Shown: in pieces, positions 186-27,355 of the stretch | Position numbering within the stretch: position 1 is the stretch's first letter | Layout: every line of letters starts with the position of its first letter | Virus record (IMG/VR): IMGVR_UViG_3300029922_000024 | Coordinates: 1 to 64,000 of that record | Length of the DNA: 64,000 nt | Direction: 5' to 3' (one strand) | Origin: a virus | Made by a program: the position numbers and the translations under genes | The notes under the pieces: model-generated | What the model saw: only the letters and a program-made list of their open reading frames with translations | The model's database searches: none | What the model was told of the DNA's origin: nothing

Positions 186-193
186 TAAGATTG
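186..193 (-). promoter_or_regulatory. Late-gene motif CAATCTTA
   Basis: On the minus strand the bases read CAATCTTA, 22 nt upstream of the gene that starts at 164. This is one of ten copies of [C/T]AATCTTA placed just before late or HNH genes in this window. I infer a promoter element; no clear -35 box is visible. Confidence 0.45.
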
Positions 194-199
194 GTTAAA

Positions 200-472
200 T
201 CAATCTACAATAGTATTCATCTCTATTAACTTATTGTTTTTATTAATCTTTATTTTTTGCATATCCATAATTGTCTTTTTTCTATGATCTTCTTTCCAAA
301 GAGGCTGCAAATTAGTGTAATGACATAAAGATTCCAGTTCTTCGATAGTTTTGGCCATAGCCAACGGTATTATATGGTCTATATCCCACAAATCTCTATT
401 TTCCCATGACATGTTACCCCTAAATAGCGACTGTATATAGCTAAATGCCTCTTCTATGGAACATCCAAGCAT
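200..472 (-). pseudogene. HNH endonuclease, C-terminal fragment after a frameshift
   Basis: This frame holds the catalytic half of an HNH homing-type endonuclease: LGCSIEEAFSYIQSLF, then WDIDHIIPLA (the DH of the HNH motif), then the asparagine in YTNLQPLW. It has no ribosome binding site of its own. It continues the protein encoded at 474-917 after a one-base shift. The run of seven A (minus strand, 481-487) at the junction has one base too many for a continuous frame. With six A the protein would read SQKTLKMLGCS, the usual sequence at this place in the family. The gene is either truly broken or the run was misread. Confidence 0.8.
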
Positions 473-473
473 T

Positions 474-917
474 TTAAGGGTTTTTTTGAGATTTATCTTT
501 CCCCCTAAAAGCTGCTGAAGTTCGAGACCTTAAATTGGATTCAAAATTGAATAATTTATCATTCTTTCTACGATTTTTTATGTACTGACCCTGATAGCTA
601 ACCCTTTCTTTTTTATGGTATAAGTAATAATCGTTCTGATAATCAATCCTTTGCTCCTTATGGGCTCCATAGTATTTATTGGCGTCTTCTTTTATCTTTT
701 GGGCATTTTCTAAACGCCAAGCTTTATGGTATTCTTTTTGTTTTTCTTTATGTAACTCTCTGTATTTCAATATCTTTTTTATATTTTTCTTGTAACTTTT
801 CTTGCCGCTAATCTTTCTGCAAGGTTTACATCTATCCTGTAATCCGTTAGGACGAGTAGAATTATGGCCAAATTCTTGGTTTTCTTTAATTGATTTACAC
901 TTATAGCATTTGGTCAT
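474..917 (-). CDS. HNH endonuclease, N-terminal fragment
   Basis: The start at 917 gives a 147-residue product. Near the N-terminus is a zinc-finger pair (CYKCKS and CKPCRK) like those of free-standing phage HNH endonucleases. A long basic helical region rich in Lys, Tyr and Gln follows. The sequence ends SQKNP, where the family normally continues into the HNH catalytic domain; that domain lies at 200-472 in another frame. The start has no ribosome binding site. The gene sits between two small virion-block genes, as expected for a mobile endonuclease. Confidence 0.75.
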   Translation of the reverse strand: MTKCYKCKSIKENQEFGHNSTRPNGLQDRCKPCRKISGKKSYKKNIKKILKYRELHKEKQKEYHKAWRLENAQKIKEDANKYYGAHKEQRIDYQNDYYLYHKKERVSYQGQYIKNRRKNDKLFNFESNLRSRTSAAFRGKDKSQKNP

Positions 918-922
918 ATATA

Positions 923-1246
923 TTATTTTTTGTTTTTTGCGTTTTTCAAAAAAAGTTCCAGTTTATCAATTCCATTATTATGATTGGATTCTGATTTCCC
1001 CATTTTTCCATAAAACACGCTAGGCTTGTCCATCGCACCACCCAATTTCTTGGGTTTGGCCGTCTTTACAACCGCTTGGGATCCAACCTTCATTGGACTG
1101 GCAGTGTTGCTGTTCGTAGGGCTTACAACCCCAGGAACCGGCGTTAATTGGGTTTGCTTTAAGCCGCCGATAGCAGATTTCACCAATTCTTCTGCTTTTT
1201 GTAGAACGATTACAGCCACTTCTTCTGGAGTGTATTGCTTAGGCAT
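923..1246 (-). CDS. Small protein, paralogous N-terminus to the gene at the left edge
   Basis: This 107-residue protein is not a family I recognise. The first 25 residues (MPKQYTPEEVAVIVLQKAEE) form a predicted helix shared with the truncated gene at 1-164. The middle is rich in Pro, Thr and Val and looks unstructured. The C-terminal half is basic (KKLGGAMDKPSVFYGKMGK). It lies in the structural block after the 344-residue virion protein, so a small virion or assembly protein is plausible. No Shine-Dalgarno sequence precedes the start; a TAATCTTA motif lies 8-14 nt upstream. Confidence 0.65.
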   Translation of the reverse strand: MPKQYTPEEVAVIVLQKAEELVKSAIGGLKQTQLTPVPGVVSPTNSNTASPMKVGSQAVVKTAKPKKLGGAMDKPSVFYGKMGKSESNHNNGIDKLELFLKNAKNKK

Positions 1247-1253
1247 ATATCGA

Positions 1254-1260
1254 TAAGATT
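1254..1260 (-). promoter_or_regulatory. Late-gene motif TAATCTTA
   Basis: On the minus strand the bases read TAATCTTA, followed by CGATAT and then the start codon at 1246. It has the same spacing class as the copies in front of the HNH genes at 12452 and 15672. Confidence 0.4.
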
Positions 1261-1262
1261 AG

Positions 1263-2297
1263 TTATTCTTCATCCTTGTAAGCTATATCGGCTAATGTGC
1301 TCCAATTAACTGTATTCAAATCTTCAAATGTATCTGTTATATTGCTTATAATTTTAAGTCCACCAATATAACCTTCGCCTTCAGATACAGGAGTTCCATC
1401 TGGTTTGGTAGTAGAGGTGCCACCTTGACCCAAGACAGCAGTTTCAAGTAATCTATGTGGTTGATTGTACCATCTATTTTCCACTTGACCGGTAATCTCT
1501 ATATCCCTAGACCATATTACTTGACCTGCGTCAGAATAATCTGGATTGGGATACATTTGACCACTTGAAATAAGACTTTCTGCGTAACCATCTTTTTCTA
1601 ACAGTGCTTGGCGGTATCTAAGTAAAGAATAGGTTGTAATTGCATGAAGCCAAAGCAAAGTCTGTTGATCCATAGCATTGCAGGTAATTTTGTAGTTTTC
1701 CTTCATGAAGGTATGACTAATTCTAGTTTCATAGAATTGAAATTCTGAAAGGACGCCATATTTTGCTGCTGTTAGACTCAATCCTTTAAATAAATTAATT
1801 GAATTATTCAAACCAATACTTTGAATCGAATAGCCAGTTCCTGTAGCAGGATCTACAAGAAGCATGCCAGGACTGATATTAGTAAAATCAATGGTAGAAG
1901 AGAAAGTAAATGCACCAGAAGTCGGATTATACGAGCCAGGAATCGGTTTGATTATATATGGGATTTGTTTATTGATATTATTTGGCATCAGTCTAACTTT
2001 TTCAACACTTAAGTCTCCCATGTGTTTCATGTCAGCTTTTTCATTGCTATTACCAATTTGAATTACTACACAAGGAAATTCCATTTTATCGTCCCTATTG
2101 GACATAAAAGTGTACACCCTATTATTGGCAAACCATTGCTTACATGATTCGATTTGGCTGCCGTAACGTTCACGCAGATATTGATTGGAAAGAGTGTCTC
2201 CTAATATATCGTCTAGAAGCCAAGGATTTTTTTGAATATCCTCAAGGCCTAGTTCGATTGCAGTGCGAATTCTTATATCGCCAAAAAATAAAGACAT
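1263..2297 (-). CDS. Virion structural protein, neck or tail-proximal, unknown family
   Basis: The 344-residue protein starts MSLFFGDIRIRTAIELGLED. An N-terminal helical part (1-60) is followed by mixed beta sequence, a Gly/Ser/Thr-rich insert around 115-165, and a C-terminal part with WNRDIEITGQ-like and EGYIGGLKIISN strands. It lies 2 nt downstream of the gp10-like completion protein and is probably translated with it. Position after portal-side head-completion genes suggests a connector or tail-terminator role. This rests on context, not on a recognised motif. Confidence 0.6.
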   Translation of the reverse strand: MSLFFGDIRIRTAIELGLEDIQKNPWLLDDILGDTLSNQYLRERYGSQIESCKQWFANNRVYTFMSNRDDKMEFPCVVIQIGNSNEKADMKHMGDLSVEKVRLMPNNINKQIPYIIKPIPGSYNPTSGAFTFSSTIDFTNISPGMLLVDPATGTGYSIQSIGLNNSINLFKGLSLTAAKYGVLSEFQFYETRISHTFMKENYKITCNAMDQQTLLWLHAITTYSLLRYRQALLEKDGYAESLISSGQMYPNPDYSDAGQVIWSRDIEITGQVENRWYNQPHRLLETAVLGQGGTSTTKPDGTPVSEGEGYIGGLKIISNITDTFEDLNTVNWSTLADIAYKDEE

Positions 2298-2299
2298 AA

Positions 2300-3100
2300 T
2301 TATCTACTTCCGTATTTAGACATCAAAGATGGTAAAATATCTTTTTCCCATCTATCTTCAGCCCATTTCTTCGCTTCTTCGAAGAACTTTTTACCTTCTA
2401 GCCCTGGATGAATCCATTTACCGTCTTGACCTTCTTTAACGGTTCTAAAGGTTGTTATGCTTCTTTTTACGCTACCATCATCTTTTTTGGTTTGATAAAT
2501 GGATAGCCCATGCAACACTGGAGTATTTCCTCTTCCTGGGATCCCACTCTCTATATCAAATGAATGTAATTTACCTATCCTTGGACTTCCTGTCTTCGGA
2601 TCTATTTCTAATTTTTTGTAAGGAATATCTCTTTTTCTTAATTCAGATTTTACTTTCTTTATAAGTTCTTGTTGATATTTTAGTTTATCATCATTACTAC
2701 TTAATTCAGATGCTACCTTTCCCTGATCAAAAGCTACGATTCTGTATTTTTTACCATCCTTGCCAGTTTTAATTTCCCCTTTACTCCCAGGTTTTTTGGT
2801 ATTCAAAAGACCCTTCTTCATATCGAAATTGTCAGGCAATCCTTTTTCAATCCACTCAGCATCTGCTTTTAAAGTAATCTCCCATAAATAGTCATCAATT
2901 TTTTCGGCTTGAGATAGATTTTCTAAATAAATTTTACGGCTGGACTTTAATTTATTTTGTGCTTCCTCTACAATATGGGTTTGGGTATCTACTGCAAGTC
3001 CCTTTACTGATTTCTTTAAATCAGACACTACTTCTTTCTTGAAGTTTTCAAGAAATTGGGTAAGTGCCGATATATCTAAGGTGACTTTAAAATCAGGCAT
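2300..3100 (-). CDS. HK97 gp10-like head-tail completion protein
   Basis: The 266-residue protein starts with a beta strand and helix (MPDFKVTLDISALTQFLENF). It ends with WIHPGLEGKKFFEEAKKWAE, the W-x-HPG and helix signature of gp10/neck-type proteins that sit between connector and tail. A Lys-rich insert at about 100-200 makes it longer than the usual 120-150 residues. The start follows AAAAGG with good spacing. Its ATG lies one base after a stop codon in the frame of the upstream extension at 3102-3306, which supports that extension being translated. Confidence 0.65.
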   Translation of the reverse strand: MPDFKVTLDISALTQFLENFKKEVVSDLKKSVKGLAVDTQTHIVEEAQNKLKSSRKIYLENLSQAEKIDDYLWEITLKADAEWIEKGLPDNFDMKKGLLNTKKPGSKGEIKTGKDGKKYRIVAFDQGKVASELSSNDDKLKYQQELIKKVKSELRKRDIPYKKLEIDPKTGSPRIGKLHSFDIESGIPGRGNTPVLHGLSIYQTKKDDGSVKRSITTFRTVKEGQDGKWIHPGLEGKKFFEEAKKWAEDRWEKDILPSLMSKYGSR

Positions 3101-3101
3101 A

Positions 3102-3306
3102 TTAACCTTTTATAGGTACTCCATTTGGACCTAAGACTCTACCCTCTTTCATATCGATGAAACGGACTCGACCGTTTTCGTCCGTAATCTTCTTCTGGCC
3201 CTTTCCATTGACGCCACCCTCAGGAATAGGATTTGCGGCAAGATGAGTAGTGGTATGTTTTGCAGATAGTTTGCTAGCAGGAATGGGTCCGGCTAGCCCT
3301 GATTTT
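3102..3306 (-). other. Probable -1 frame C-terminal extension of the mCpol-like protein
   Basis: Between the stop of the large gene (3293) and the next start (3100) there would be 192 nt without a gene, unusual here. In the -1 frame this stretch is open for about 66 codons and reads like protein (GLAGPIPASKL, ITDENGRVRFID, GRVLGPNGVPIKG), ending one base before the next ATG. It has no start codon near its beginning. It joins the large gene at CCC AAA AAA T (minus strand; the T run 3303-3308 on the plus strand), a slippery-type site. A seventh A, or -1 slippage, would make one protein of about 745 residues. Confidence 0.65.
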
Positions 3307-5332: not shown

Positions 5333-6365
5333 TTGTTTTCCTCAAAGTGTCCAGGAGCATTTGAATATTTTCTTTATCCCAACCACGAGAAAATCTTATC
5401 TGAATACTTTCTTCTGATTTCTTAATCCAAATTTTGCTATACTGATCTTGGCCATAGCACAAACAACAAGAAAAAGACCCTTGGCCAAAAATGGTTTGTC
5501 CGCAATCAGGGCAGTTGATAGTTTCGGATTTAGCAATTTCAATTCTATGTTCTTTTGGTTTTTTCTTTCGTTCCAAAAATGCTTTTAATGGAGAACCTTT
5601 TTCGGGAGACTCTTCTTTTTTGGCCATATCTTCTGCCTTAAAATCCAATTTTTTTTTAGGTGCTTCTGCAAAATTGGGCTCTTTATTATTTGCAATTGAA
5701 TCGGCAACTTCCATGCCATTAGCCATTCCCTGGAAATACTCACCCGACTGCGCAGATTGATGGGCAATTTTTGTTACATCCGAAATCTGTTCATTTTTCT
5801 TATGTTCTTTGGCTAAAGCTTCATTGAGCCTATCCATCATAAGTTTATTAAGAGCGTCTCTTTCAGAAATTTTATTCTCAACTACGCGACTAACCAAAGA
5901 ATGAAGTTCCATTCTTGCATCGATCAATTTTTGTATTTTGGCTTCAGCATGTTCCGTTGGCTCAATAGTCTCTTTTTCTAATTTTTCTAATTCGTAAAGT
6001 TCGAATGTAGATAGTAGGATGATACCAAGTCCAGGAATTGATCTATTTTGAAAACTGTAAACTAATTTATTGTTGTCATAGACAGATCCCGTATAGTCAT
6101 CGGCAGCATTCTTGTTTGCACTAACACGAGCGTTTTTGCCAAATGGAAGTTGAAGTTCTATACTGGTATTGAGTGGCATCGGTGTCAAAGCGCTAATGAG
6201 CAATGACATGACAAATCTTGGAACCACCTTCAACCCAATACGAATCTCTTCAGGGTCCAATACAGAATTGGATCCGATCTTGTATAGATCTGCAGATTTA
6301 GCTAAAGATTGTAGAAAATCTTCATCTAAAATCTTATTAAGAGATAGGTTGTGTATTGTTTGCAT
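5319..6365 (-). CDS. Virion-block protein with C-terminal zinc ribbon
   Basis: The 348-residue protein has a mixed N-terminal domain (1-125), a charged helical centre (about 130-260) likely to form a coiled coil, and a C-terminal zinc-ribbon-like segment (CPDCGQTIFGQG, then CCLCYGQ) near 285-310. I do not recognise a named family. It overlaps the start of the mCpol-like gene by 14 nt and the end of the upstream 155-residue gene by 29 nt, so the three are translated together. A virion or assembly role is inferred from position only. Confidence 0.6.
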   Translation of the reverse strand: MQTIHNLSLNKILDEDFLQSLAKSADLYKIGSNSVLDPEEIRIGLKVVPRFVMSLLISALTPMPLNTSIELQLPFGKNARVSANKNAADDYTGSVYDNNKLVYSFQNRSIPGLGIILLSTFELYELEKLEKETIEPTEHAEAKIQKLIDARMELHSLVSRVVENKISERDALNKLMMDRLNEALAKEHKKNEQISDVTKIAHQSAQSGEYFQGMANGMEVADSIANNKEPNFAEAPKKKLDFKAEDMAKKEESPEKGSPLKAFLERKKKPKEHRIEIAKSETINCPDCGQTIFGQGSFSCCLCYGQDQYSKIWIKKSEESIQIRFSRGWDKENIQMLLDTLRKTNGKD

Positions 6366-6804
6366 TTTGTTGTGCGTATGGTCCTGTTTCTTGTGCGATC
6401 CTAGTAGGGTCTTCCATTATGTAAACTAAAAGGGTATTGGCGCTAGTATACACATACTGATTGTTCCCCGCAGATAAATAGGTCCATGCATTTGGAGGGC
6501 ATGCTACTCCAACATTACCATTTGCATCTGTTGCACCGGCTGCTAAGGCGGTGATTGTAGAACTCCCAATAGTAACTGACCCCAAAGTACCGTTATTGTA
6601 AATTGCAAGATTTGCGCCAAGAAATGGAAGTGCCACTTTTGCAGAAGCATCAGTTGTATACCCACCAGCGATTTGGATTGGCAGAAGTCTAGGTCCAACC
6701 GTAAGCGATTTTTGTCCACCAGACGATGGATTGTATTCAACAACCTTAATTTGGTCTGGATCCTGTAAAGAATTGTTGTCTATTACCCGGTTATTTTTTG
6801 CCAT
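6337..6804 (-). CDS. Small beta-rich virion-block protein
   Basis: The 155-residue protein is rich in Gly, Ala, Thr and Asn and alternates polar and hydrophobic residues (LAIYNNGTLGSVTIGSST), as in compact beta structures of capsid or tail accessory proteins. No catalytic motif is visible. It is the first gene after a CAATCTTA motif (6833-6840) and overlaps the next gene by 29 nt. It could be a decoration or tail-tube-proximal protein; I cannot decide. Confidence 0.55.
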   Translation of the reverse strand: MAKNNRVIDNNSLQDPDQIKVVEYNPSSGGQKSLTVGPRLLPIQIAGGYTTDASAKVALPFLGANLAIYNNGTLGSVTIGSSTITALAAGATDANGNVGVACPPNAWTYLSAGNNQYVYTSANTLLVYIMEDPTRIAQETGPYAQQNANNTQPIS

Positions 6805-6832: not shown

Positions 6833-6840
6833 TAAGATTG
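6833..6840 (-). promoter_or_regulatory. Late-gene motif CAATCTTA
   Basis: The minus strand reads GCAATCTTATAG, 29 nt upstream of the start at 6804, in one of the few gaps of the structural block. It is part of the ten-copy motif set. Confidence 0.5.
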
Positions 6841-6846
6841 CTAAGT

Positions 6847-9781: not shown

Positions 9782-10717
9782 TTAAATATTCGATACCAAG
9801 AATTTAGTTGCAAAAGTAGCTTTTACTTTACCAACCAATTCCATTTTTTTCTTTTCTAATTGTTCGATGTAAGGAAGGTACATTCTAGGGCCAGGTCCAG
9901 AAGATGATTGGCTGATACCATCCCTACTCAATGACTGACTTGTAGTCAGAAACAGATTAGTGATCACAGAGAGCATATTAATGGCAGCAATGGTTCCCAC
10001 TAAATCATTGATCACTGTAGGAAACTGACCTTCAATTTTTGAAACACCGGTCTGATAAACAATTTGCCAAAATCCAGGAACAAAAGTAAGTGAACTAAAA
10101 ACATTCAAATACGGAATACCACCGTAAGCACCAACTCCGCCGCCACTAGCAACAGAGTAGGCACCTAGAATTGGTACTACGTTAACAATACCTTTAGCAA
10201 AGTTACTAGGCTCAAGCCATTCAGGTGGAATTTTAAAAACCGCATACCCATCACTACTAACAATTTGAACGCTTTGTACAGCCAAGATAGGATTTTGTTC
10301 TGTTTTTAAATAAATGAAACTTTTGTAGAGAGCGATATCGAATGGGACCTTATCAGTAAACTGTTCTCTGCTTAAAGTAATCTTACAAAGCATTTCGACT
10401 TCATTAATAGCCAGACCAATTTGGTCTTTAACGTCTTCAGCACTGTAAGAATCACCATTTGGAAATGCCAAGGGAATCCCTTTGAGATAACGAGAAATCA
10501 ATAATTGTGGAGTAAGAATAGGCTCACATCTACTCAATAGACCAGACGATTTACTCATGTGGACTGGATATGCAGCAGAATAGAATTGCTTATCCTTATC
10601 GAAATTCGGAGGTTGAGGAGTGCCGTCTAATGGACCAGATGTAGGTTTAGGAACCGGCTCATAAGGAGCTTGTTGTTCTACATATGGTGGTCCTGGCTTA
10701 AATGGAGGATTACTCAT
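9782..10717 (-). CDS. Connector-like head completion protein
   Basis: I use the ATG at 10717 (MSNPPFKPGPPYVEQ) because CAGGGA lies 9 nt upstream; its ATG overlaps the upstream stop as TAATG. The 311-residue protein has a Pro-rich N-terminus. A helical segment resembling the gp6-type connector fold follows (EDVKDQIGLAINEVEMLCKI), then strands and a hydrophobic Gly-rich region (GAYSVASGGGVGAYGG), and it ends with basic helices. Location between other virion genes supports a head-tail joining role, but the match is weak. Confidence 0.5.
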   Translation of the reverse strand: MSNPPFKPGPPYVEQQAPYEPVPKPTSGPLDGTPQPPNFDKDKQFYSAAYPVHMSKSSGLLSRCEPILTPQLLISRYLKGIPLAFPNGDSYSAEDVKDQIGLAINEVEMLCKITLSREQFTDKVPFDIALYKSFIYLKTEQNPILAVQSVQIVSSDGYAVFKIPPEWLEPSNFAKGIVNVVPILGAYSVASGGGVGAYGGIPYLNVFSSLTFVPGFWQIVYQTGVSKIEGQFPTVINDLVGTIAAINMLSVITNLFLTTSQSLSRDGISQSSSGPGPRMYLPYIEQLEKKKMELVGKVKATFATKFLVSNI

Positions 10718-11190
10718 TAGCAACATCCCTGATTGGTTTGTTCAACCGCTAACATATTTGTAACGGTCCAAGTCCAAGTATTTATGCCTTGAGTTAAAGT
10801 AAAGATAACGTTTCCGCTAGAAGGTCCATACCCAACATTTGCATATCCTGGAATATTAAAAGACCAAACAGAAGCATCATTGGGATCGGGGGTGCCTGTA
10901 TAAGTAAGTGTTTTTCCAATGCTTAAACTAGGAAAAGTAATAGTCATGCTGATTGGCTGATTGCTCGTACCCACTCCTGCAATATATCGTTGGGGATAGT
11001 TTTGAATAGCAGCATTGAAGAAACCGCCATTTAGAGCAGAAAATGGAGCTTGGGTACTAGTAATATTATCTAAGTCAAATAGTTGATAATAAAGGGTATT
11101 CGGATCCGATGCCCTTATTGTCCACTGACTTGTTTCTTGGAAGTCATTGATATTGCTAAAGTTTATAATTGGTACGGAGGTCAATCTCAT
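10717..11190 (-). CDS. Small beta-sandwich-like virion protein
   Basis: The 157-residue protein is almost all beta-type sequence rich in Thr, Ser, Asn and Gly (ISMTITFPSLSIGKTLTY, GNVIFTLTQGINTWTWTV). It begins MRLTSVPIINFSNINDF and ends NQGCC. It is the first gene of this minus-strand group, preceded by GAGG and by a CAATCTTA motif at 11226-11233. A decoration, connector or tail accessory role is possible. Confidence 0.55.
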   Translation of the reverse strand: MRLTSVPIINFSNINDFQETSQWTIRASDPNTLYYQLFDLDNITSTQAPFSALNGGFFNAAIQNYPQRYIAGVGTSNQPISMTITFPSLSIGKTLTYTGTPDPNDASVWSFNIPGYANVGYGPSSGNVIFTLTQGINTWTWTVTNMLAVEQTNQGCC

Positions 11191-11225: not shown

Positions 11226-11233
11226 TAAGATTG
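11226..11233 (-). promoter_or_regulatory. Late-gene motif CAATCTTA in a divergent gap
   Basis: The minus strand reads GCAATCTTATAAG, 36 nt upstream of the start at 11190. It lies in the divergent gap shared with the thymidylate kinase gene. Confidence 0.5.
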
Positions 11234-11300: not shown

Positions 11301-11924
11301 ATGCTTAAAGTAGAATTCGAAGGTACAGATGGCGCAGGAAAGACAACCGGCCTTAAATATTTCATTGAACAGGCCAAGAAACGTGGTTTTTCAGTAACCG
11401 AAACCCGCGAAGTGGGCAATCCGCATATTCCAGCATGTGTGAAAATGCGGGAATTAGTTCTTGACCCAAATAGTAACCTAAGCGGCGAAGCAATGGAGCT
11501 TGTTTTTTCCGCAATGCGATTCGAAAATGATCGATGGTTAAAAACGGTAAATTCACAGTTAGTCGTATCTGATCGTGGATGGTTGAGTCATCTTGCCTAT
11601 ACCGATCATAATGTGGACGAAGATTTTACTAAGAATCTTTATGAGCGTTTTGTAGGACTTGAAACCCAGTTACCCGGCGCAGTTATTTATTTTGATGTTA
11701 GTACAGATACAGCCCTTAAGCGTCGCAATAATCGTGGCACTTCCGATGTTATTGAGATGAAAGGTGTACCTTTTCAAGAGAAAGTTCGATCTTCTTTCGA
11801 AAAACATCTTAATCAATATGGACAGTTCATGAAAGTATTTCGAGTTAATGCGAATGGTACTATTGACGAAGTACGACAAGAACTAGACGGTATTCTAGAT
11901 AAGATCGCAACACTACCCCTATAA
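11301..11924 (+). CDS. tmk: Thymidylate kinase
   Basis: The enzyme phosphorylates dTMP to dTDP with ATP. The 207-residue length is normal for the family. The P-loop FEGTDGAGKTT lies at 6-16, the substrate-site motif DRGWLSHLAY near 91-100, and a LID-like basic segment KRRNNRGTSD near 139. The start has an AGAAGGAG ribosome binding site. With ThyX at 21678 it would supply dTTP. The gene is a single plus-strand island inside the minus-strand virion block, and its 3' end overlaps the convergent HNH gene by 6 nt. Confidence 0.9.
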   Translation: MLKVEFEGTDGAGKTTGLKYFIEQAKKRGFSVTETREVGNPHIPACVKMRELVLDPNSNLSGEAMELVFSAMRFENDRWLKTVNSQLVVSDRGWLSHLAYTDHNVDEDFTKNLYERFVGLETQLPGAVIYFDVSTDTALKRRNNRGTSDVIEMKGVPFQEKVRSSFEKHLNQYGQFMKVFRVNANGTIDEVRQELDGILDKIATLPL

Positions 11925-12452
11925 GACTTTTCTACTTTTATGACGATTTTCGGATCTAGTAATAACTCTTAGATTCCAAGGTACATGAAGACCTTTTCTG
12001 TCTTTGCCCATAACAGGTTCTATATGATCGACTTCATGTGGTATTCCGGTACTTTGTGTTAACTTTGCAGCTTCTATATAAAAAATCTCTATTTGGGTCC
12101 AATGATCTTCTGTCAACCATTTAGGTGTAGCGGCTCTTTTTTGGGCACGTCTCCTAGCAGTCTTTGCGTTAGATTTTCCTGGATTATTTTTCCTGTATTC
12201 CTGATCGTATATTTTTAATTTTTCTTTCCTTCTTAATGTCTGAACTGCACGTTTTTGTGATGCTAACACAGGATCTTTTTCTTTTTTTGCTCTTCTTCTT
12301 AAACGGATCTTTTCTAGGTTTTCTTTTTGCCATTCCCTTGAATCGGAGTTATGACATTTTTTACAGATAGCTCTAAGTCCATCTTTACCAAATTTGGCTT
12401 TTCCAAAATCTTTGAATTCTTTATTTTCTTTACAAGCAGTACAGGCCTTCAT
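11919..12452 (-). CDS. Free-standing HNH endonuclease
   Basis: The 177-residue protein has an N-terminal zinc finger (CTACKENKEF and CKKCHN), a basic middle rich in Arg and Lys, and a C-terminal HNH core: HEVDHIEPVMG, then HVPWNLRVITRSENRHKSR. It is a clear paralog of the nuclease at 15672-16172, sharing the PHEVDHI and GLHVPWNL blocks. The product probably nicks DNA to spread its own gene. It is inserted between thymidylate kinase and the capsid terminator. The start lacks a Shine-Dalgarno sequence and follows a TAATCTTA motif closely. Confidence 0.85.
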   Translation of the reverse strand: MKACTACKENKEFKDFGKAKFGKDGLRAICKKCHNSDSREWQKENLEKIRLRRRAKKEKDPVLASQKRAVQTLRRKEKLKIYDQEYRKNNPGKSNAKTARRRAQKRAATPKWLTEDHWTQIEIFYIEAAKLTQSTGIPHEVDHIEPVMGKDRKGLHVPWNLRVITRSENRHKSRKVL

Positions 12453-12457: not shown

Positions 12458-12464
12458 TAAGATT
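12458..12464 (-). promoter_or_regulatory. Late-gene motif TAATCTTA in front of an HNH gene
   Basis: The minus strand reads GATAATCTTATATAT directly before the ATG at 12452. GATAAT could serve as a -10 box, which would give an mRNA with almost no leader. The same arrangement precedes the HNH gene at 15672. Confidence 0.45.
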
Positions 12465-12502
12465 ATCTCACCCATATACAAAAGTCAATAGAAAACGAAC
12501 AC

Positions 12503-15027: not shown

Positions 15028-15495
15028 TTAGGTGTTACCTTTGAAGCCCCAGTCAAGGTCCTTAATAGTTTGAACAGGAGAAGCTGCATTCACAGCCGCT
15101 TCCGTAACAGCAGTTCCGTTAGCAATAGCATATTCAGAAACAACGCAACCAGTGCGAGCGATCTCGAATAAACAAGTTGAAAAATCTGCAGTAGAAGGAA
15201 TTGGAGCACCAGCACCGTTTAATTCGTAAGCTACTTGAGCGAGGGTTGGAGTGAATGGGAGGGTTGAATTTCCGAAAATGTCTTTAGCACCAACATCGAT
15301 GTTCATCAAACGAATCCAAACTACTGGATTACTTTCAGTAGCAACTCCGTTATGGGAAGCGATGATGATAGGGTATCCGTTTTCATCTTGTGATTGGGCG
15401 ATAGTATTGATCGTTGAGCTATTGCTGAAACGAAGGGAAAGGCGGTCTGCTAAGTCTCTTGCGATGCCAACACTGTGATCGACTGAATAGAGCAT
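15028..15495 (-). CDS. Capsid-operon protein, decoration protein candidate
   Basis: The 155-residue protein starts MLYSVDHSVGIARDLADRL. Strands follow (GYPIIIASHNGVATESNPVV, TLAQVAYELNG) and then an Ala-rich tail. It leads the capsid operon, with AAGGAGA before the ATG and even codon use, which suggests strong expression. A decoration or minor capsid protein is the likeliest reading, from position and size only. Confidence 0.55.
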   Translation of the reverse strand: MLYSVDHSVGIARDLADRLSLRFSNSSTINTIAQSQDENGYPIIIASHNGVATESNPVVWIRLMNIDVGAKDIFGNSTLPFTPTLAQVAYELNGAGAPIPSTADFSTCLFEIARTGCVVSEYAIANGTAVTEAAVNAASPVQTIKDLDWGFKGNT

Positions 15496-15534
15496 GGTAT
15501 GTTCTCCTTAAAAATTTTGTCCTTAGACATATAA

Positions 15535-15558
15535 GCCATTTAAATGGCCAACTAGTTG
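15535..15558. promoter_or_regulatory. Two adjacent perfect palindromes before the capsid operon
   Basis: GCCATTTAAATGGC (15535-15548) and CAACTAGTTG (15549-15558) are both exact palindromes and touch each other. They lie 40-63 nt upstream of the capsid operon start at 15495, in a 176-nt divergent gap. They could be binding sites of a dimeric regulator. I see no convincing minus-strand -35/-10 pair here. Confidence 0.45.
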
Positions 15559-15631
15559 TTTACATAGATAAGTATTAGGTCATTTTAAAATAATTCAATA
15601 AAATCAACGATATAACATGTAACACTACTAC

Positions 15632-15661
15632 TTGCATTTTGGGTATTGATCATGCTATAAT
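15632..15661 (+). promoter_or_regulatory. Promoter for the HNH gene, near-leaderless
   Basis: TTGCAT (15632-15637), an 18-nt spacer and a perfect TATAAT (15656-15661). Transcription would start about 4 nt before the ATG at 15672, which has no ribosome binding site. The box overlaps a TAATCTTA motif (15658-15665). Confidence 0.6.
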
Positions 15662-15671
15662 CTTATAGTAT

Positions 15672-16172
15672 ATGAAAAATTGCACCAATTCCCTATGTGA
15701 ACAAGAAAATCCTCAATCTTTTGATAGTTTCTATAAAAAGAAAAACGGGAAATTTGGTCTTTTGGGAAGATGTAAAAAATGTGCCAATAAACAGACAGAT
15801 GCTTGGGTTGCTAAAAACAAACAAAAGAAACGCGAATCCGCAAAAAGATGGATAGATGGAAATAAAGAAAAGCACTTAAAAAATAGCAGAAATTGGTCCA
15901 AAAACAACCCAGGCAAAAGAAATGCGCAAACCATGAGACGAATTGCCGCCAAGAAACAAGCCACACCACCATGGCTAACACATGAACAACATAAGGAAAT
16001 AGAAATTATTTACATTAAGTCCTCTACCCTAACACAAGAAACGGGAATACCCCATGAAGTCGATCATATACTTCCTTTACAGGGTAAAGAAGTACGAGGT
16101 CTACACGTACCTTGGAATCTTCAAATAGTGACCAGATCTACAAACAGAAAGAAAAATAATGCCATAATATAA
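15672..16172 (+). CDS. Free-standing HNH endonuclease
   Basis: The 166-residue protein is a paralog of the nuclease at 11919-12452. It has an N-terminal Cys pair (NCTNSLCEQ, CKKCANK), a basic helical middle (SAKRWIDGNKEKHLKNS), and the HNH core PHEVDHILPLQGK followed by HVPWNLQIVTRSTNRKK. It sits between the capsid operon and the prohead protease on the opposite strand to the capsid genes. It probably moves as an intronless homing gene. A perfect -10 box ends 10 nt before its start. Confidence 0.85.
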   Translation: MKNCTNSLCEQENPQSFDSFYKKKNGKFGLLGRCKKCANKQTDAWVAKNKQKKRESAKRWIDGNKEKHLKNSRNWSKNNPGKRNAQTMRRIAAKKQATPPWLTHEQHKEIEIIYIKSSTLTQETGIPHEVDHILPLQGKEVRGLHVPWNLQIVTRSTNRKKNNAII

Positions 16173-16178: not shown

Positions 16179-16186
16179 CAATCTTA
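16179..16186 (+). promoter_or_regulatory. Late-gene motif CAATCTTA
   Basis: CAATCTTAAGGTAT directly precedes the protease ATG at 16193. The AAGG inside it may double as a weak ribosome binding site. Confidence 0.45.
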
Positions 16187-16192: not shown

Positions 16193-17830
16193 ATGTCAAC
16201 TTTTCTCCATGGTGTCGGAACTGTTCAATTTATAGATAAATCGGGAGAACTCCTTGATCTTAAAGGATTAAGTATAGATTCTCTCGAAAAGACTGGCGTT
16301 ATCAACTATGAACACAAGAGCGATGTGCCAGCCCAATTAGTTGGCAAGATATTGAAAGCAAAGAAGATTTTCTCAAAAAAAGACTGCGCAAACGAACACG
16401 AACTCTATTTTTGGAAGAAAACCAAAACCCCATATTTATACATCATGGCCGAGTTGTTAGATGACTATTGCGATAGCGCAAAACACGTTGCAGGTATGTT
16501 GAGATACGACAGAGACAGAAAAGACCAAAACGAATACAATATTGTGTGGTTTAGTATTGAAGGCAGTGAAATCCCAAATACTAGAGTGGGCAAGTCCATT
16601 ATTACAAGAGGTATTGCACGTAAGGTTACTTTGACTTCTGCACCATGTAATGCGGCAGCTGCAGTTGAAATTCTTGAAAACCAAGCACCAAAAATTAAAG
16701 ACGACTTTGATGAAATATTTAAAAGCGAACAAGAAGCTATCACTTTATTCAAAACGGGTGAAGGTGAAAAGTTGTACGAAACCTATTTAGCAAAAAAAGA
16801 AGCCGAAGGCCCAAGCACTGGCGGTAAGCCCCCAAAGAATCCCTACAATGAATATCAAAATAGCGGCACTAGAATTGGTAAAACAAAATCCGGTAAGACT
16901 GTTTGGTCTCACGGACACATTGGCGATTACAGTTTTAATCCTGCCGAACACCAAGAAGCTGCCGAACATCATGAACGGGCTTCTGTAATTTCTGAGAATC
17001 CAAAACTTGCTGATAACCACGCGCAACGTGCAGTTGCTCACGCTAATGCTGCTAAATCCGGTGGTCGTCAAGAAAATCGTGCAGCACTTTCTCTTAACCA
17101 AAAAGATAAGGTGGCTCAGGAGCAAGGAAAACAAGTGTCTAAAGCCGAATATTGTGAAAAACACAAAAAATTACAAAAAGCTGATGGACCAAAATGGTCG
17201 GGACCAAAAGTAACTGGTGACGCCATACATTTTTCTCATCCAGAACACAATATCGTTAGTGTCCATAAACAGCCTTCTGGAGAATTTCACGTAAAACACA
17301 ATGGTAGAGTTGCTGGCGTGGGTGGACAAAAAGGCGTATTCAATAATGCAAAAGATGCAGGGGCACACGCACAAAAATTCATGAGTGGGTTAAGTAGTGG
17401 TAAGATAACCGCTCCAGCGATGCAAAACCATCCATCACCTTCAATTATTGGCAATACATCTATCAAAAAAGCAATTACTGCTGGTAGTACGAATGCAGCA
17501 CCTTCAACTTTGGTAAATGGAGCTGCCTACCAAACAGAAAGTCTTGCTAAAGAACAATCTCCTTCAGAAGAACATAATTTTAAAGGCTCAAAAAAGAAAG
17601 ACTGGAATTTAAGAGCCAAGCAAGATTACGAAAAATGGCCTCATAGGGAAAAGTTTGAGAAGTTCATGAAGTCAAAAATGCCTCACCTTTCTAAGGGTGA
17701 AATAGCAGCTTTTGGCAGAGTAATTGCACTCAAGAAGAATATCGAATTTGAAAATTCTTTAAGCGATCTAGTTGACTTTAATAAATCTGAAGATGCTAAA
17801 AAAGTAATTGTATCAAATACAAAAAAGTAG
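16193..17830 (+). CDS. Prohead (head maturation) protease with long C-terminal scaffold-like region
   Basis: The 545-residue protein begins with a phage prohead protease domain (about 1-165). GVINYEHKSDVPAQLVGKI holds the likely catalytic His (H41), VWFSIEGSEI near 120 a candidate Ser, and GIARKVTLTSAPCN the conserved core strand. A domain with GKTKSGKTVWSHGHIGDY and many His (about 225-300) follows, as in other phage assembly proteins. Near 429 is AGSTNAAPSTLVNGAAYQ, nearly the same as the N-terminus of the major capsid protein. The C-terminus is helical and basic. I infer that protease and part of the scaffold are joined in one chain that is built into the prohead. It lies on the plus strand, away from the capsid operon. 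Confidence 0.75.
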   Translation: MSTFLHGVGTVQFIDKSGELLDLKGLSIDSLEKTGVINYEHKSDVPAQLVGKILKAKKIFSKKDCANEHELYFWKKTKTPYLYIMAELLDDYCDSAKHVAGMLRYDRDRKDQNEYNIVWFSIEGSEIPNTRVGKSIITRGIARKVTLTSAPCNAAAAVEILENQAPKIKDDFDEIFKSEQEAITLFKTGEGEKLYETYLAKKEAEGPSTGGKPPKNPYNEYQNSGTRIGKTKSGKTVWSHGHIGDYSFNPAEHQEAAEHHERASVISENPKLADNHAQRAVAHANAAKSGGRQENRAALSLNQKDKVAQEQGKQVSKAEYCEKHKKLQKADGPKWSGPKVTGDAIHFSHPEHNIVSVHKQPSGEFHVKHNGRVAGVGGQKGVFNNAKDAGAHAQKFMSGLSSGKITAPAMQNHPSPSIIGNTSIKKAITAGSTNAAPSTLVNGAAYQTESLAKEQSPSEEHNFKGSKKKDWNLRAKQDYEKWPHREKFEKFMKSKMPHLSKGEIAAFGRVIALKKNIEFENSLSDLVDFNKSEDAKKVIVSNTKK

Positions 17831-18139: not shown

Positions 18140-18360
18140 AACCTTATGGCAAAAAAATTGGTAGGGGTCTTAAAGGATCTAGATTTCTAGATAATGGATG
18201 TCCATGTTGTGGCAGAGAGCATGACCACAAAGGAGCCACAAGACAGGCCCTTAATAAAGAGATTGTTGATATTCTTAAGGAACAAATAAAAGCCGAAGAA
18301 GAAGAAAGACTTAAGAGTAGATTGGAAGCAATGGAGTTTTCTAGGAGACTCCGATTTTAA
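18136..18360 (+). CDS. Small zinc-binding-like protein
   Basis: The 74-residue protein begins with TTG at 18136, overlapping the previous stop. It has a basic N-terminus, a possible metal site (GCPCCGREHDH near 21-31) and a charged C-terminal helix (LKEQIKAEEEERLKSRLEAM). No family is recognised. It converges on the endolysin gene, overlapping its end by 4 nt. Confidence 0.6.
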   Translation: MKPYGKKIGRGLKGSRFLDNGCPCCGREHDHKGATRQALNKEIVDILKEQIKAEEEERLKSRLEAMEFSRRLRF

Positions 18361-18926
18361 GCCGTAAAATATCTACCTGACGGCCCTGGTTCCTTAAGAT
18401 CCAAGTGAATCCAGCTAGTTGTCCCCTTCTCCATCCTAATACCAAAATCTTCCAGTACTGGTTCCATTTTATCTTTAATTTCTTCTATAGTTAAGTTAGG
18501 GGAGCAATCGAAGTCAATTGCACATCCAAAACTATGCACATCATTAGGCAATGAATGTAAAACTTCTTCATTGTATTTTACCGATCTAAATAGACAATGA
18601 GCATTCATTGGAAACCCTAAATGCGTCCTTACTTGCTCCATTTTTTGACATAAAGTAATAAGTTTTTCCTTAACATCATCATCAAGTCCATCGTCCTCTG
18701 TAGCAAGACGATTCCATGAATGTAACGTAATAGCGTCCCCGACAGTAAAATGAGGGGTAATGTGATGGGTTGCATCGGTCCAATCAATACCATTTGAATC
18801 CATATTAGGGCTACTTTCTTTAGGGGTTCCGATTGGGATCTCAACCTGAATTTCCTTTTCTTTTCCATGACTTGTAAGTAAGGTTCCAAGTGAATTTAGA
18901 ATCATATCTATAAATGAATTTGCCAT
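18357..18926 (-). CDS. M15-family peptidase, endolysin candidate
   Basis: The 189-residue protein carries the zinc-peptidase pattern of the M15 (D-Ala-D-Ala carboxypeptidase/L-Ala-D-Glu endopeptidase) family: VHSFGCAIDFD (His and Asp ligands, near 128-138) and WIHLDL (last His, near 174). An N-terminal hydrophobic segment (FIDMILNSLGTLLTS) is followed by a linker. It probably cuts peptide cross-links in the host wall at lysis. A holin candidate lies just across the divergent gap at 19302. A CAATCTTA motif lies 36 nt upstream. Confidence 0.75.
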   Translation of the reverse strand: MANSFIDMILNSLGTLLTSHGKEKEIQVEIPIGTPKESSPNMDSNGIDWTDATHHITPHFTVGDAITLHSWNRLATEDDGLDDDVKEKLITLCQKMEQVRTHLGFPMNAHCLFRSVKYNEEVLHSLPNDVHSFGCAIDFDCSPNLTIEEIKDKMEPVLEDFGIRMEKGTTSWIHLDLKEPGPSGRYFTA

Positions 18927-18938: not shown

Positions 18939-18969
18939 CAATCTTATATTGGTTACTCCAATAAGATTG
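18939..18969. promoter_or_regulatory. Inverted pair of CAATCTTA motifs between divergent genes
   Basis: CAATCTTA (18939-18946, plus strand) and TAAGATTG (18962-18969, minus-strand CAATCTTA) face each other with TTGG/CCAA arms, forming a 31-nt inverted repeat. The plus copy lies 35 nt before the start at 18982 and the minus copy 35 nt before the start at 18926. This symmetric spacing supports a divergent promoter. Confidence 0.55.
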
Positions 18970-18981: not shown

Positions 18982-19299
18982 ATGAAACTTAATATCAAAT
19001 TTGGCCTACTAGGAGATAAAGAGGTTGACTGGTGGAAGTCTCTCGATAGTTTCCCTAAAACTATAAAGTACCTAAACGTAATTTATGAATGGGTTTTTTA
19101 TGATGACGATCAATCCAAGAAATACCATAAAATTTTATGGTTTTCTGAACTTAAACAATATGATCCTAGATACAACGAAAAGCATGAAAATTGGAACGAT
19201 ATTTTCGAAAGCAACAAACTTAGTTGTTGTTGTGGAGCCAGATATAGCAGTTTTCCTTGGGATCATTTAAGATATTGCCCAGAATGGAAGAAGTGGTAG
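18982..19299 (+). CDS. Small protein with C-terminal Cys cluster, unknown
   Basis: The 105-residue protein is rich in Trp and Tyr (VDWWKSLDSFPKTIKYLN). Near its end is a possible zinc site: SCCCGARYSSFPWDHLRYCP. I do not recognise a family. It is the first plus-strand gene after the inverted-repeat promoter and stops 2 nt before the membrane-protein start. Confidence 0.6.
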   Translation: MKLNIKFGLLGDKEVDWWKSLDSFPKTIKYLNVIYEWVFYDDDQSKKYHKILWFSELKQYDPRYNEKHENWNDIFESNKLSCCCGARYSSFPWDHLRYCPEWKKW

Positions 19300-23239: not shown

Positions 23240-23240
23240 T

Positions 23241-24005: not shown

Positions 24006-24009
24006 AAAA

Positions 24010-24579: not shown

Positions 24580-24590
24580 GTATAATCCTC

Positions 24591-24704
24591 TTAATTCTTA
24601 AAACTAGCAGCTATGTTATATAAAAGCCACCAAATTAGGCCAAGAAAAGTTACGAGACCTAAAGTACATCCAATAAAATACTCACAAAATTTAAAGAATC
24701 CCAT
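24591..24704 (-). CDS. 37-residue single-span membrane peptide
   Basis: A short frame between portal and the Gln-rich gene reads MGFFKFCEYFIGCTLGLVTF, followed by LGLIWWLLYN and IAASFKN. Almost all of it is one membrane helix. Its ATG follows the portal stop by one base (TAATATG), so it could be translated by coupling. The 126-nt gap would otherwise be unexplained. I cannot assign a function. Confidence 0.5.
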   Translation of the reverse strand: MGFFKFCEYFIGCTLGLVTFLGLIWWLLYNIAASFKN

Positions 24705-24705
24705 A

Positions 24706-26520
24706 TTAGTCTTCGTCCTCTTCTAACATATCAGAAATTAACCATTTTAACAAATCTAAAGAGTGTGGTTTTGGAGCATACATAGCAGCCACCGAATTTG
24801 GTGCTATTTGAGCCATTAATTGCAATGACTGCAACGAAAATGGATCTCGTTTGAATCTCATAAGTGGATCCACATACGCTGCAGGACTGCCCATAAAGCG
24901 TCCTTTTATTTGACCAACATCTAAGTATTTATCCCAAACGAGTTGAATTCTTTCGTTAAATGGTACTTCTCCAGCCATTCCTACACCGATAGTTGGTTTA
25001 TCGACATAGTTCAGCACCTCATCATAGGTCATGTGAGTGGGCTGATCTTGTTGTAAGCGAGTAGATTCTTGTTCCTTAGATTCAGCATCTAATCCAGCAA
25101 TTTTGAATACTACGATTTTTGCTAGAATAGGGTCAATGATCGGAATCAACCTTTGATTAAAAAATGTCTCAAGATGCTGGATAATTGGAACAAATCCAGA
25201 GTCGCGAGCAGCTTCTAATTTGAATTCGTTATTTGATTCGCTTAAAGTCTGACTATTAGAACCCTTACTTAAATGGCCATATCCTGGAAGTTCATCAGGA
25301 GACATTTGGAAGGTCGCGAGAATGTTCCTTGCAATTTGGTCGTAAATGAATTCAAATGAATCATCTGCTTTATCGTTTGCAAATGAAAGCCAATCAATGC
25401 TCTCGGTTGGAGATATACCCATTAAAGGAGTACGGAATGAGTTTTGTACACCATTAATACTTGCTTGAAACTCTTGTCTGAATTTCTCTAATGTAGGAGA
25501 ATCAACGTCATCCGATTTAATGACCAATGCTCCACGAGTAGCTCTACCATTTTGGAAATAAAGTCTTTTCCAGGTATCAATACTAATATGGGTAGTAATT
25601 GAAGAAATTGCAGTTTCAATTGGTGGTACAGGATATCCGTTCTTTTCAACATCTGTACATGGATAGAAGTCGTGCATCAACAATTCTTCATGAGTGAAAT
25701 ACTGTTTTGCAATACCTTCTACTTGTTGACACCACGCATACTTATCTTCTCTAAGTTTATCGTAATCAATTCCGATTTTATCGCCAGTAATTCTTTCAAG
25801 TTCTTTAATGGCAAGAATTCTGGTATTAACTCCAGCCTGCTCACCATTTCTTACTGTCTTAAAGATGGTGCCGGAATCGATTGGTCTAAAACGATTAAAT
25901 GGGAATCTACCTTCTGCATCTGGTTCTGATTCTCTATCATAGATGACCTCTGTACCCATCCAACCAAAAGTAAGAGCGTTCTCCACAGAAAGGGCCAAAT
26001 ACTGACTTAAAGTCATTTTTTGTTGGTTTTCAAGACCTTCTGTATGACCGCAATTTAAGAGAATTGTTTCAAGTCTTTTAATTCGTTCTGTAACTTTTTC
26101 AAACTGTTCCGTATTTAAAAGTTTATAGAATTCAGGTTTGATTTTAATCTCAATACCTTTATCGAAACGATCGGCACGCTTCTTACCAAATTGGCTAATT
26201 TGACCTGCGCGAGTCCTTAAGATAGCAGCAACTAAGTGATCTTGAACCCTTACGAGTTTCAAAAGAGCATCTGGAATTTCATTTCTCTTAGCTTTAACTA
26301 CACCGGCATAAGCATCGTTGTAATTTGGGCTTTCCATGAAGGTAAGCGCAGGAGCTCGTTCTGTGGCTTTTCCTATCGAATCATTTAATGCTTTTTGTAA
26401 TGGACGTAAGGTGGTACTGTCAGCTTTTAACTGAGCAAGGGGATCCATGTTGATTTCAGCCGAAAGCGTCAGCGACATGTCTTTTTTTATTGCAGACTTT
26501 TCGTTATTTTCATCGCTCAT
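24706..26520 (-). CDS. Portal protein
   Basis: The 604-residue protein forms the dodecameric DNA gate at the capsid vertex. The family pattern is visible: an N-terminal charged arm, the wing region (ALTFGWMGTEVIYDRESE, about 185-205), the stem with YFQNGRATRGALVI, then IARNILATFQMSPDELPG and LEAARDSGFVPIIQHLETFF in the crown. Length is normal. It follows the Ig-like protein by 3 nt and comes shortly after the terminase, the standard order. Confidence 0.8.
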   Translation of the reverse strand: MSDENNEKSAIKKDMSLTLSAEINMDPLAQLKADSTTLRPLQKALNDSIGKATERAPALTFMESPNYNDAYAGVVKAKRNEIPDALLKLVRVQDHLVAAILRTRAGQISQFGKKRADRFDKGIEIKIKPEFYKLLNTEQFEKVTERIKRLETILLNCGHTEGLENQQKMTLSQYLALSVENALTFGWMGTEVIYDRESEPDAEGRFPFNRFRPIDSGTIFKTVRNGEQAGVNTRILAIKELERITGDKIGIDYDKLREDKYAWCQQVEGIAKQYFTHEELLMHDFYPCTDVEKNGYPVPPIETAISSITTHISIDTWKRLYFQNGRATRGALVIKSDDVDSPTLEKFRQEFQASINGVQNSFRTPLMGISPTESIDWLSFANDKADDSFEFIYDQIARNILATFQMSPDELPGYGHLSKGSNSQTLSESNNEFKLEAARDSGFVPIIQHLETFFNQRLIPIIDPILAKIVVFKIAGLDAESKEQESTRLQQDQPTHMTYDEVLNYVDKPTIGVGMAGEVPFNERIQLVWDKYLDVGQIKGRFMGSPAAYVDPLMRFKRDPFSLQSLQLMAQIAPNSVAAMYAPKPHSLDLLKWLISDMLEEDED

Positions 26521-26523
26521 ATA

Positions 26524-27327
26524 TTAACCCATCGACGCGAAAAACAGATTTGCAGTAGTAGCGCTCATGTTTGTAACCGAAAGAGAGTAACATGGGCCAG
26601 CCATAAAAAATACTGCTGGTTGGGTTACCCCATTGACCTGAAATGGATTTAAAGCCATAGCCGTTCCATTATTATATATCACGGAGACCTGTTGATCGCT
26701 CTCAAAATAGATAAAGGCAGCTGGTTGATAGAAAAGTATTTCTTCATTGGTAGTATTAGTTGCAGCCTGCGACATAGTCACGTTAGTAACGTTCGTAAAA
26801 CCAGAAAATGCAATAGTTGCATCCCCAGTACCGCTCACCAAAGTTAGAGTTCCAGGAGCAGATGGAGGTGTCGCTCCCCCTGTAGAGACTAATAAGGACC
26901 CGCTCACTATGGTTCCAGAAACAGTGAAGTTCAGTCCATTACTACTATAAACGGCCCCAGCAGTCGCATTTGAGCCCGATACGGTGAAGTTGTATTGAAT
27001 GGGGGCAATACTTAGAACGGTAGTTCCAACCGGGATTGAAGGTCCTACGATCAATTGATCTATAGCTATTCCTACAGGACTCCCGAATACAACCAAAAGA
27101 GGCGTACCGTTGATAGAATAGCTTCCAGAGTTCGTTATAGCGGAAAATGGATAAGGAACGATATTTGGGGTTGTTACCGAAGGAAGTACTTGAATTTGTT
27201 GATCATTTTCTATATTAAATGGAATTCCATTTATTTCTCTTAACCATTTAAAGTTATTTTGAGAAGGTACAGTAGTTGGGACTAAATCCGCGTAACTATT
27301 CAGAAAAAATTGTAGATTGGTTTTCAT
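26524..27327 (-). CDS. Ig-like beta-rich virion protein
   Basis: The 267-residue protein is beta-rich and has a repeated fibronectin/Ig-type flavour: YNFTVSGSNATAGAVYSS, LNFTVSGTIVSGSLLVST and PSAPGTLTLVSGTGDATIAF. N- and C-terminal parts (IPFNIENDQQIQVLPSV; FMAGPCYSLSVTN) may be the virion-binding core with an Ig-like insertion between. It lies between terminase and portal. A surface decoration or fibre-like role is possible. A CAATCTTA motif lies 21 nt upstream. Confidence 0.5.
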   Translation of the reverse strand: MKTNLQFFLNSYADLVPTTVPSQNNFKWLREINGIPFNIENDQQIQVLPSVTTPNIVPYPFSAITNSGSYSINGTPLLVVFGSPVGIAIDQLIVGPSIPVGTTVLSIAPIQYNFTVSGSNATAGAVYSSNGLNFTVSGTIVSGSLLVSTGGATPPSAPGTLTLVSGTGDATIAFSGFTNVTNVTMSQAATNTTNEEILFYQPAAFIYFESDQQVSVIYNNGTAMALNPFQVNGVTQPAVFFMAGPCYSLSVTNMSATTANLFFASMG

Positions 27328-27347
27328 TAGGTATACCTCTTAGTAGT

Positions 27348-27355
27348 TAAGATTG
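27348..27355 (-). promoter_or_regulatory. Late-gene motif CAATCTTA
   Basis: The minus strand reads CCAATCTTAACTA, followed by AAGAGG and the start at 27327. It sits in the 34-nt gap after the terminase gene. Confidence 0.45.

Follow-up and report, generated by a model that had tools for sequence, protein, structure and literature searches.

The first 64,000 bases (the window) of the 114,496-base virus record IMGVR_UViG_3300029922_000024, labeled G000 in our analysis, carry an eight-base element, YAATCTTA, which we regard, with a probability of roughly 80%, as the late promoter core both of this phage and of a broader phage group with Mx1 as a cultured member, read by a phage-encoded sigma factor and functioning without a -35 element. 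An earlier note on this DNA had proposed a phage-specific late promoter. That proposal is supported by the placement of the element exclusively at late genes both here and in Mx1, by its lack of enrichment in control phages, and by its retention in front of orthologous genes.

In the regulatory scheme that we propose, the host RNA polymerase (RNAP) would be equipped with the phage sigma factor encoded at positions 32911-33948, a protein in which the -10-reading domain is kept and the -35-reading domain is gone, and would then recognize YAATCTTA at positions -13 to -6 without the help of a -35 element. Host sigma70-type transcription from a TGATATA sequence would provide the phage sigma first, and this protein would subsequently turn on the structural, lysis and free-standing endonuclease genes. 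Those genes whose ATG lies 5 nucleotides (nt) downstream of the element would be transcribed as leaderless mRNAs.

Enrichment and placement of the element

Throughout this study, gene starts are those of our own simple, uncurated gene caller. Ten copies of YAATCTTA had been described in the window (Table 1), all directed at the next gene and 5-40 nt in front of its start. Each of the ten is present at exactly the position given and points toward the next gene, with measured distances of 5-35 nt from the end of the motif to the ATG; the copy at position 18939 faces a 105-amino-acid (aa) open reading frame (ORF) that our gene caller dropped. The window contains six further exact matches (10378, 39207, 39443, 40392, 42055, 48451), every one of them intragenic, and the five that fall into the replication half run antisense to the local genes. 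The gaps of the replication half are hence free of the motif, as had been stated. The raw number of copies in the window is ordinary (16 versus 10.2 +/- 3.1 in shuffled sequences, with at least 16 in 6 of 100 shuffles); raw counting of this kind is uninformative as a test.

The full record holds 24 exact copies, of which 7 are intragenic and 17 are intergenic, and all 17 of the latter point at the next gene. Non-coding sequence accounts for merely 8.25% of the record according to our gene calls (binomial, 7.5e-14). A called start follows 5-48 nt downstream of 16 of these 17 sites, the seventeenth being the copy at 18939 that faces the dropped ORF. The two forms of the element are unequal: CAATCTTA shows the strongest upstream enrichment among 8-mers with at least four occurrences in the 60 nt before genes (13 of its 15 copies), versus 3 of 9 for TAATCTTA. 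The full genome thus does show enrichment relative to coding sequence, the lack of which the earlier note had named as speaking against its proposal. The motif search of the intergenic regions that it had suggested, carried out as a de novo expectation-maximization (EM) search on 67 gaps and seeded from 700 random words, ranks CAATCTTA first. When EM was run on fixed 60-nt upstream regions, with the number of sites per gene uncapped, it drifted to Shine-Dalgarno (SD), A-rich and other signals in 11 of 13 genomes (G000 included) and stayed with the motif in just two, G010 and G005; we consequently relied on the intergenic-gap search for G000 and on exact-word tests.

The half of the record outside the window (64001-114496) contains eight sites, one intragenic and seven before genes, some of which encode baseplate or tail proteins and one a homing endonuclease. 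Within the late blocks (1-31350 and 64813-104100), the element is found within 60 nt of the start of 16 of 60 genes, versus none of the 62 genes of the replication block and the right end (Fisher test, 3.6e-6). Such a distribution suggests that the element acts as a promoter in the cell and that it does so late in infection.

Conservation across a wider phage group

Relatives were found through the phage sigma factor, which retrieved 67 IMG/VR loci (31-100% identical) and, from a phage collection, a single record, Myxococcus phage Mx1 (OR576727). Fourteen records, chosen by the presence of the sigma gene, were analyzed (G000, G005, G006, G008, G010, G013, G018-G023, G025 and Mx1); the other sigma loci were viewed within their flanks, in 59 cases. 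In the 14 records, 213 of the 793 occurrences of YAATCTTN (27%) have a gene start no more than 60 nt downstream. Shuffling the six core letters gave 59 permuted cores as controls, for which this share averages 4.1% and never exceeds 9.2%. Enrichment before starts is found in 13 of the 14 records (p 1e-3 to 5e-21). The exception is G008 (1/29), a 45.7-kb fragment that, judging by its gene directions, consists mostly of the replication region; site totals of 212 and 213 in the text result from leaving it out or including it.

Two relatives likewise have CAATCTTA as their top-ranked 8-mer, with 18/21 and 7/10 copies located upstream. In the close clade formed by G000, G005, G006 and G010, only CAATCTTA (40/48 upstream) and TAATCTTA (8/27) are clearly enriched, the latter as the sole one-mismatch variant. 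In the more distant members the eighth base is free, and CAATCTTA (19/35), CAATCTTT (19/39), CAATCTTC (23/78), TAATCTTA (9/19), CAATCTTG (11/53) and, more weakly, CAATCTAA (4/10) are found upstream of genes. The signal is not equally prominent in every genome. SD or other sequences head the list of enriched words in some genomes, among them G018, where CAATCTTA ranks 20th, and G022, where it ranks 33rd. G019 is weak (CAATCTTA 1/4, TAATCTTA 2/10; YAATCTTN 9/71, p 1e-3), and G020, where CAATCTTA is upstream in 0/7 cases, uses CAATCTTT instead (6/23).

In Mx1, the element precedes 15 of 84 called genes on the plus strand versus none of 154 on the minus strand (6.8e-8), and the plus strand, which carries all 15 sites, holds the annotated portal, capsid, sheath and baseplate genes. 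Fourteen of the 15 called starts behind these sites match the annotation; the start at 48198 has no annotated gene. Control phages showed no enrichment (T4, 75-125 kb, 1/26; SPO1, 30-80 kb, 0/24; Mx8, 0/2), and the same pipeline recovered TATAAATA as the top 8-mer of T4 (12/18), which served as the positive control.

Our listing of orthologs comprises groups with at least three motif-bearing members. In addition to the cases given in Table 1, the element is kept before the orthologs of the baseplate gene 93634-96264 in 11 of 11 genomes, and conservation is partial (3/11) in the group that contains the tail sheath gene of Mx1. The phages in which the element is present range from 35 to 63% G+C.

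Spacing to the start codon and predicted transcription start

Across 212 sites (13 genomes, called start within 60 nt), the spacing between motif and start codon is bimodal: 60 sites lie at a distance of 8 nt or less, and the others are spread broadly over 9-58 nt. A sharp spike is formed by 38 of the 212 sites that are located exactly 5 nt before the start, a position at which permuted cores reach at most 1, and the same spike is seen in ATG counts that are independent of gene calls. SD sequences follow this division closely: they are absent from all 60 sites at 8 nt or less, accompany 8 of the 16 sites at 9-14 nt and are found with 115 of the 136 sites whose distance is at least 15 nt.

The 144 sites with a leader (at least 13 nt) point to the same transcription start. 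Their most biased downstream column is the sixth base after the motif (A 43%, G 30%, T 22%, C 4%), and the base preceding it is T in 42%, a pattern that bacterial transcription starts would be expected to show. Taken together, the 5-nt spike and this purine peak with its preceding T probably place the +1 position at the sixth base after the motif, so that the element would occupy -13 to -6. An ATG at a distance of 5 nt would consequently coincide with +1 and yield a leaderless mRNA; both the spike and the lack of SD sequences in the 60 closely spaced sites fit such a transcript, given a start position that is itself deduced from the sequence. We therefore predict that the mRNA of about a quarter of the motif-driven late genes begins on or beside the first codon and would be translated without a leader. 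The baseplate gene illustrates this: across 11 genomes its element is placed 5 to 55 nt before the start, at 8 nt or less in 6 of 11, so that its leader appears to shrink from about 50 nt to nothing while the promoter stays in 11 of 11 genomes.

A phage sigma factor without region 4.2

Neither the fixed 5-nt spacing nor the sigma gene located in the same window had been remarked upon in the earlier note. As a single sequence, the 345-aa sigma protein has one weak PHROG match (phrog_351, 3.3e-5), and a Pfam search at 0.001 gave nothing. In a small sigma alignment, each of the 5 members matches phrog_351, and a profile built from 48 sigma sequences matches RpoD at 6.8e-9 from region 2 to the start of region 4. 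An AlphaFold2 model (pLDDT 81.7, pTM 0.64) finds SigA as its best match in VIA-align (Z 12.5, rmsd 4.4, 197 residues aligned, over residues 14-288), and among the 50 matches listed, all are sigma chains. Hence, region 2 homology and the fold of domains 2-3 tie the protein to the sigma70 family, and region 4.2 is missing. Its C-terminal end (...QKVLRLKGIEI) is reached where sigma70 continues into region 4.2, and this end is kept in the relatives that were viewed. A Sigma70_r4 scan gave no match in G000 and matched 14 of 14 controls, and no split region 4 was found in the genes after sigma. In ten records searched with phrog_351, six gave one place each, and the sigma genes of the other four were seen only by closer sequence search.

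The sequence in front of the element is in keeping with this architecture. No usual -35 had been noticed before, and none emerges from the larger data set: in the 212 sites, all columns from -60 to -5 before the motif carry at most 0.12 bits, and TTGACA occurs in only 1 of 212. A promoter without a -35 element and a sigma factor without a -35 reader fit each other. The phage sigma thus probably reads YAATCTTA, as judged from this fit and from the co-occurrence of the two in records that were picked by the sigma gene.

The sigma gene itself is preceded by TGATATA, 34 nt before its start, and has no YAATCTTN. As TGATATA reads as a host-type promoter, sigma synthesis would come ahead of late gene expression. 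We use here the common background on the extended -10 pattern of sigma70 promoters (TGNTATAAT), on SD words, on TTGACA as a -35 sequence, on MotA-style activation and on the naming of sigma regions. TGATATA is enriched upstream of genes in the close clade, in the window at 31297, 32870 and 44849 and elsewhere, and also in G010. Over eight genomes, 10 of the 94 near-start TGNTATA sites form a spike at a distance of 8 nt to the start codon. This is the distance expected if +1 of a sigma70 extended -10 promoter coincided with the start codon, and it supports both the geometry derived above and the existence of leaderless starts. The TGNTATA class looks like a host sigma70 extended -10 promoter that is partly leaderless. 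In distant members other upstream words replace TGATATA: in G025 (L182-L191) this is GATTCGATAGAA (ATTCGATA 21/28), and in Mx1 words resembling GATCCGCTA and AGATCAAC are enriched upstream instead. These words of G025 and Mx1 are possibly early or middle promoters.

Alternative explanations and points that weigh against a sigma-read late promoter

Several observations weigh against our interpretation. Among the genes of the late blocks, 44 of 60 lack the motif, many of them operon-internal. No YAATCTTN lies in the 110 nt before the operon that leads to the major capsid gene of this phage (first gene 15028-15495, upstream stretch 15496-15671), so that the motif is not used by every late operon; inspection by eye of the upstream sequences in relatives revealed no obvious shared substitute. 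Two late-block genes, starting at 69695 and 73996, carry TGATATA instead. In the 48 sites of the close clade, T is found at 57% at a position 22 nt before the start of the motif, which would correspond to -35; this is a lone column for which we offer no interpretation. With respect to the sigma factor, the VIA-align Z of 12.5 is just below the level of about 13 at which the tool advises caution for helical folds, and the TM-scores of Foldseek are low (0.26-0.39). The link between sigma and motif consists of co-occurrence and fit, and since the core of the element stays fixed among sigma factors with identities as low as about 31%, no covariation is available to strengthen it.

This invariance of the core despite a diverging phage sigma is also what one would expect if the host RNA polymerase read the promoter with a host alternative sigma factor and the phage sigma served another class of genes. 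We consider this unlikely, although it is the most serious competitor. The element is kept in phages of 35-63% G+C, which probably have different hosts, and always together with the phage sigma, a coincidence that is partly by construction as the records were selected by sigma. Moreover, a phage sigma lacking region 4.2 matches an element lacking a -35, and the other promoter-like class, TGNTATA, already resembles host sigma70 promoters. A T4 MotA-style arrangement, in which the motif would not itself be a -10 but would bind a phage activator, with a sigma70 -10 farther downstream, could draw on the A/T-rich letters found 4-7 nt downstream of the motif in the close clade. It is nevertheless quite improbable, because the 38 sites with 5-nt spacing leave no room for a -10 before the ATG, and because the purine peak lies six nt after the motif.

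The same 38 sites, and the absence of SD sequences from the 60 close ones, might be taken to indicate a translation signal, that is, an unusual ribosome-binding site. Yet the element is also found 15-58 nt upstream of starts that possess a separate SD sequence in 115 of 136 cases, and it is specific to late genes, which leaves this explanation with very little probability. An equally small chance is given to a late promoter of a phage-encoded RNAP, either single-subunit or of the multisubunit phiKZ/AR9 type. Such polymerases do use short late promoters, for instance AACA-6N-TA/G in AR9 as given in PMC5312081, but no Rpb1_5 domain (beta' subunit, PF04998) was found in any of 10 records, with 14 of 14 controls matched. 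A T7-type RNAP (PF00940) was likewise found in 0 of 10 records, but the controls gave no match in this search either.

Feature positions and neighboring genes

Table 1. Predicted late promoter elements and sigma-associated features in the window (distance, motif end to ATG).
Feature	Position	Strand	Distance (nt)	Gene faced and remarks	Element kept before orthologs
Late promoter element CAATCTTA (predicted)	186..193	-	21	Gene 3-164 (window edge); SD; predicted +1 at 180	
Late promoter element TAATCTTA (predicted)	1254..1261	-	7	923-1246; predicted leaderless or nearly	
Late promoter element CAATCTTA (predicted)	6833..6840	-	28	6337-6804; SD	5/5
Late promoter element CAATCTTA (predicted)	11226..11233	-	35	10717-11190	10/11
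Late promoter element TAATCTTA (predicted)	12458..12465	-	5	11919-12452 (endonuclease VII/HNH-type); predicted leaderless	
Late promoter element TAATCTTA (predicted)	15658..15665	+	6	15672-16172 (endonuclease VII/HNH-type); predicted leaderless or nearly	
Late promoter element CAATCTTA (predicted)	16179..16186	+	6	16193-17830 (weak head maturation protease match)	7/7
Late promoter element CAATCTTA (predicted)	18939..18946	+	35	ORF 18982-19299; predicted +1 at 18952	
Late promoter element CAATCTTA (predicted)	18962..18969	-	35	Endolysin-like gene 18357-18926; predicted +1 at 18956	5/5
Late promoter element CAATCTTA (predicted)	27348..27355	-	20	26524-27327, gene before portal (24706-26520)	12/13 genomes
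TGATATA before sigma gene	32870..32876	+	34	Reads as host-type extended -10 (TGNTATA)	
Phage sigma factor, 345 aa	32911..33948	+		Sigma70-like regions 2 and 3; stops at the start of region 4, no region 4.2; proposed motif reader	

The two elements at 18939 and 18962 stand face to face and form an inverted repeat, CAATCTTA..TAAGATTG, from 18939 to 18969. As their predicted start sites are 4 bp apart, the transcript of the endolysin-like gene and the opposing one would collide.

The presence of the motif in front of HNH genes, another point raised at the outset, was borne out, as the two endonuclease VII/HNH-type genes of the window each possess their own copy of the element. So does the homing endonuclease gene 68065-68604, and related endonuclease genes in G005 and G010 have the element at 4-5 nt; two of the seven members of the endonuclease ortholog group (in G018 and G010) are without it. 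From these individual copies, free-standing homing-type endonucleases appear to travel with, or to acquire, an SD-independent late promoter.

Other genes of the window were noted in passing. A GroEL-like phage chaperonin (29239-31026; phrog_5725, 8e-84) is preceded by an 85-aa gene (31013-31270) that is a candidate for GroES; in Mx1, GroEL is likewise preceded by a small gene. The replication block encodes a protein with an IMP dehydrogenase/GMP reductase domain (59495-60667; 3.4e-88), a CYTH domain protein (61252-61839) and a Clp-protease-like protein that matches head maturation protease families (36750-37637). A thymidylate kinase gene (11301-11924) stands alone on the plus strand between late operons of the minus strand.

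Comparison with known late transcription systems

The closest parallel within the sigma-based group outlined here is Mx1, a cultured phage with 55% G+C and 169,621 bases. Its sigma, WNM70309.1, annotated as a putative sigma factor, is 38.6% identical over 89%, it has the same neighbors (helicase, sigma, phosphoesterase), and the same motif stands before its late genes. Our literature searches found no promoter description for Mx1; the words "promoter", "sigma" and "transcription" have 0 occurrences in the main text of PMC6070905, and a search for the letters of the motif gave no title on this phage group among those listed. The element provides a predicted late promoter, a predicted start site at the level of individual bases and a candidate reader for a large phage group that has a cultured representative, and it allows late genes and operons to be called from sequence alone in metagenomic relatives.

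A short phage-specific late motif is also a feature of AR9 and phiKZ, but theirs is read by phage multisubunit RNAPs, as described in PMC5312081, and we found none in 10 records. The resemblance to T4 goes further. Here as there, an 8-bp element begins at -13 (with the start in our case deduced from sequence), lacks a -35 and stands before structural genes; in the numbering used for T4 late promoters in PMC2988020, the element likewise spans -13 to -6. Like gp55 of T4, the sigma is devoid of the -35-reading domain. There are also differences. The word is YAATCTTN here versus TATAAATA in T4, and the sigma, nearly twice the length of gp55, can be recognized as sigma70-like over regions 2-3. Homology to gp55 was not detected by hhalign (probability 0.6%), with gp55 belonging to phrog_234 and the sigma described here to phrog_351. 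In the stretch of T4 examined, moreover, sites lie at least 14 nt from the called start, and none is leaderless.

With somewhat less assurance than for the promoter itself, we think it probable that a large, mostly uncultured group of T4-sized phages including Mx1 possesses a late system of its own, consisting of a truncated sigma without detectable kinship to gp55 and a single -35-free element of 8 bp, and that about a quarter of its motif-driven late genes, among them those for a baseplate protein and free-standing endonucleases, are leaderless. If this is true, a considerable fraction of a phage's late genes can be expressed with no need for ribosome-binding sites, and the solution known from T4, a sigma factor without a -35 domain combined with a short element, exists in a second, sequence-distinct form.

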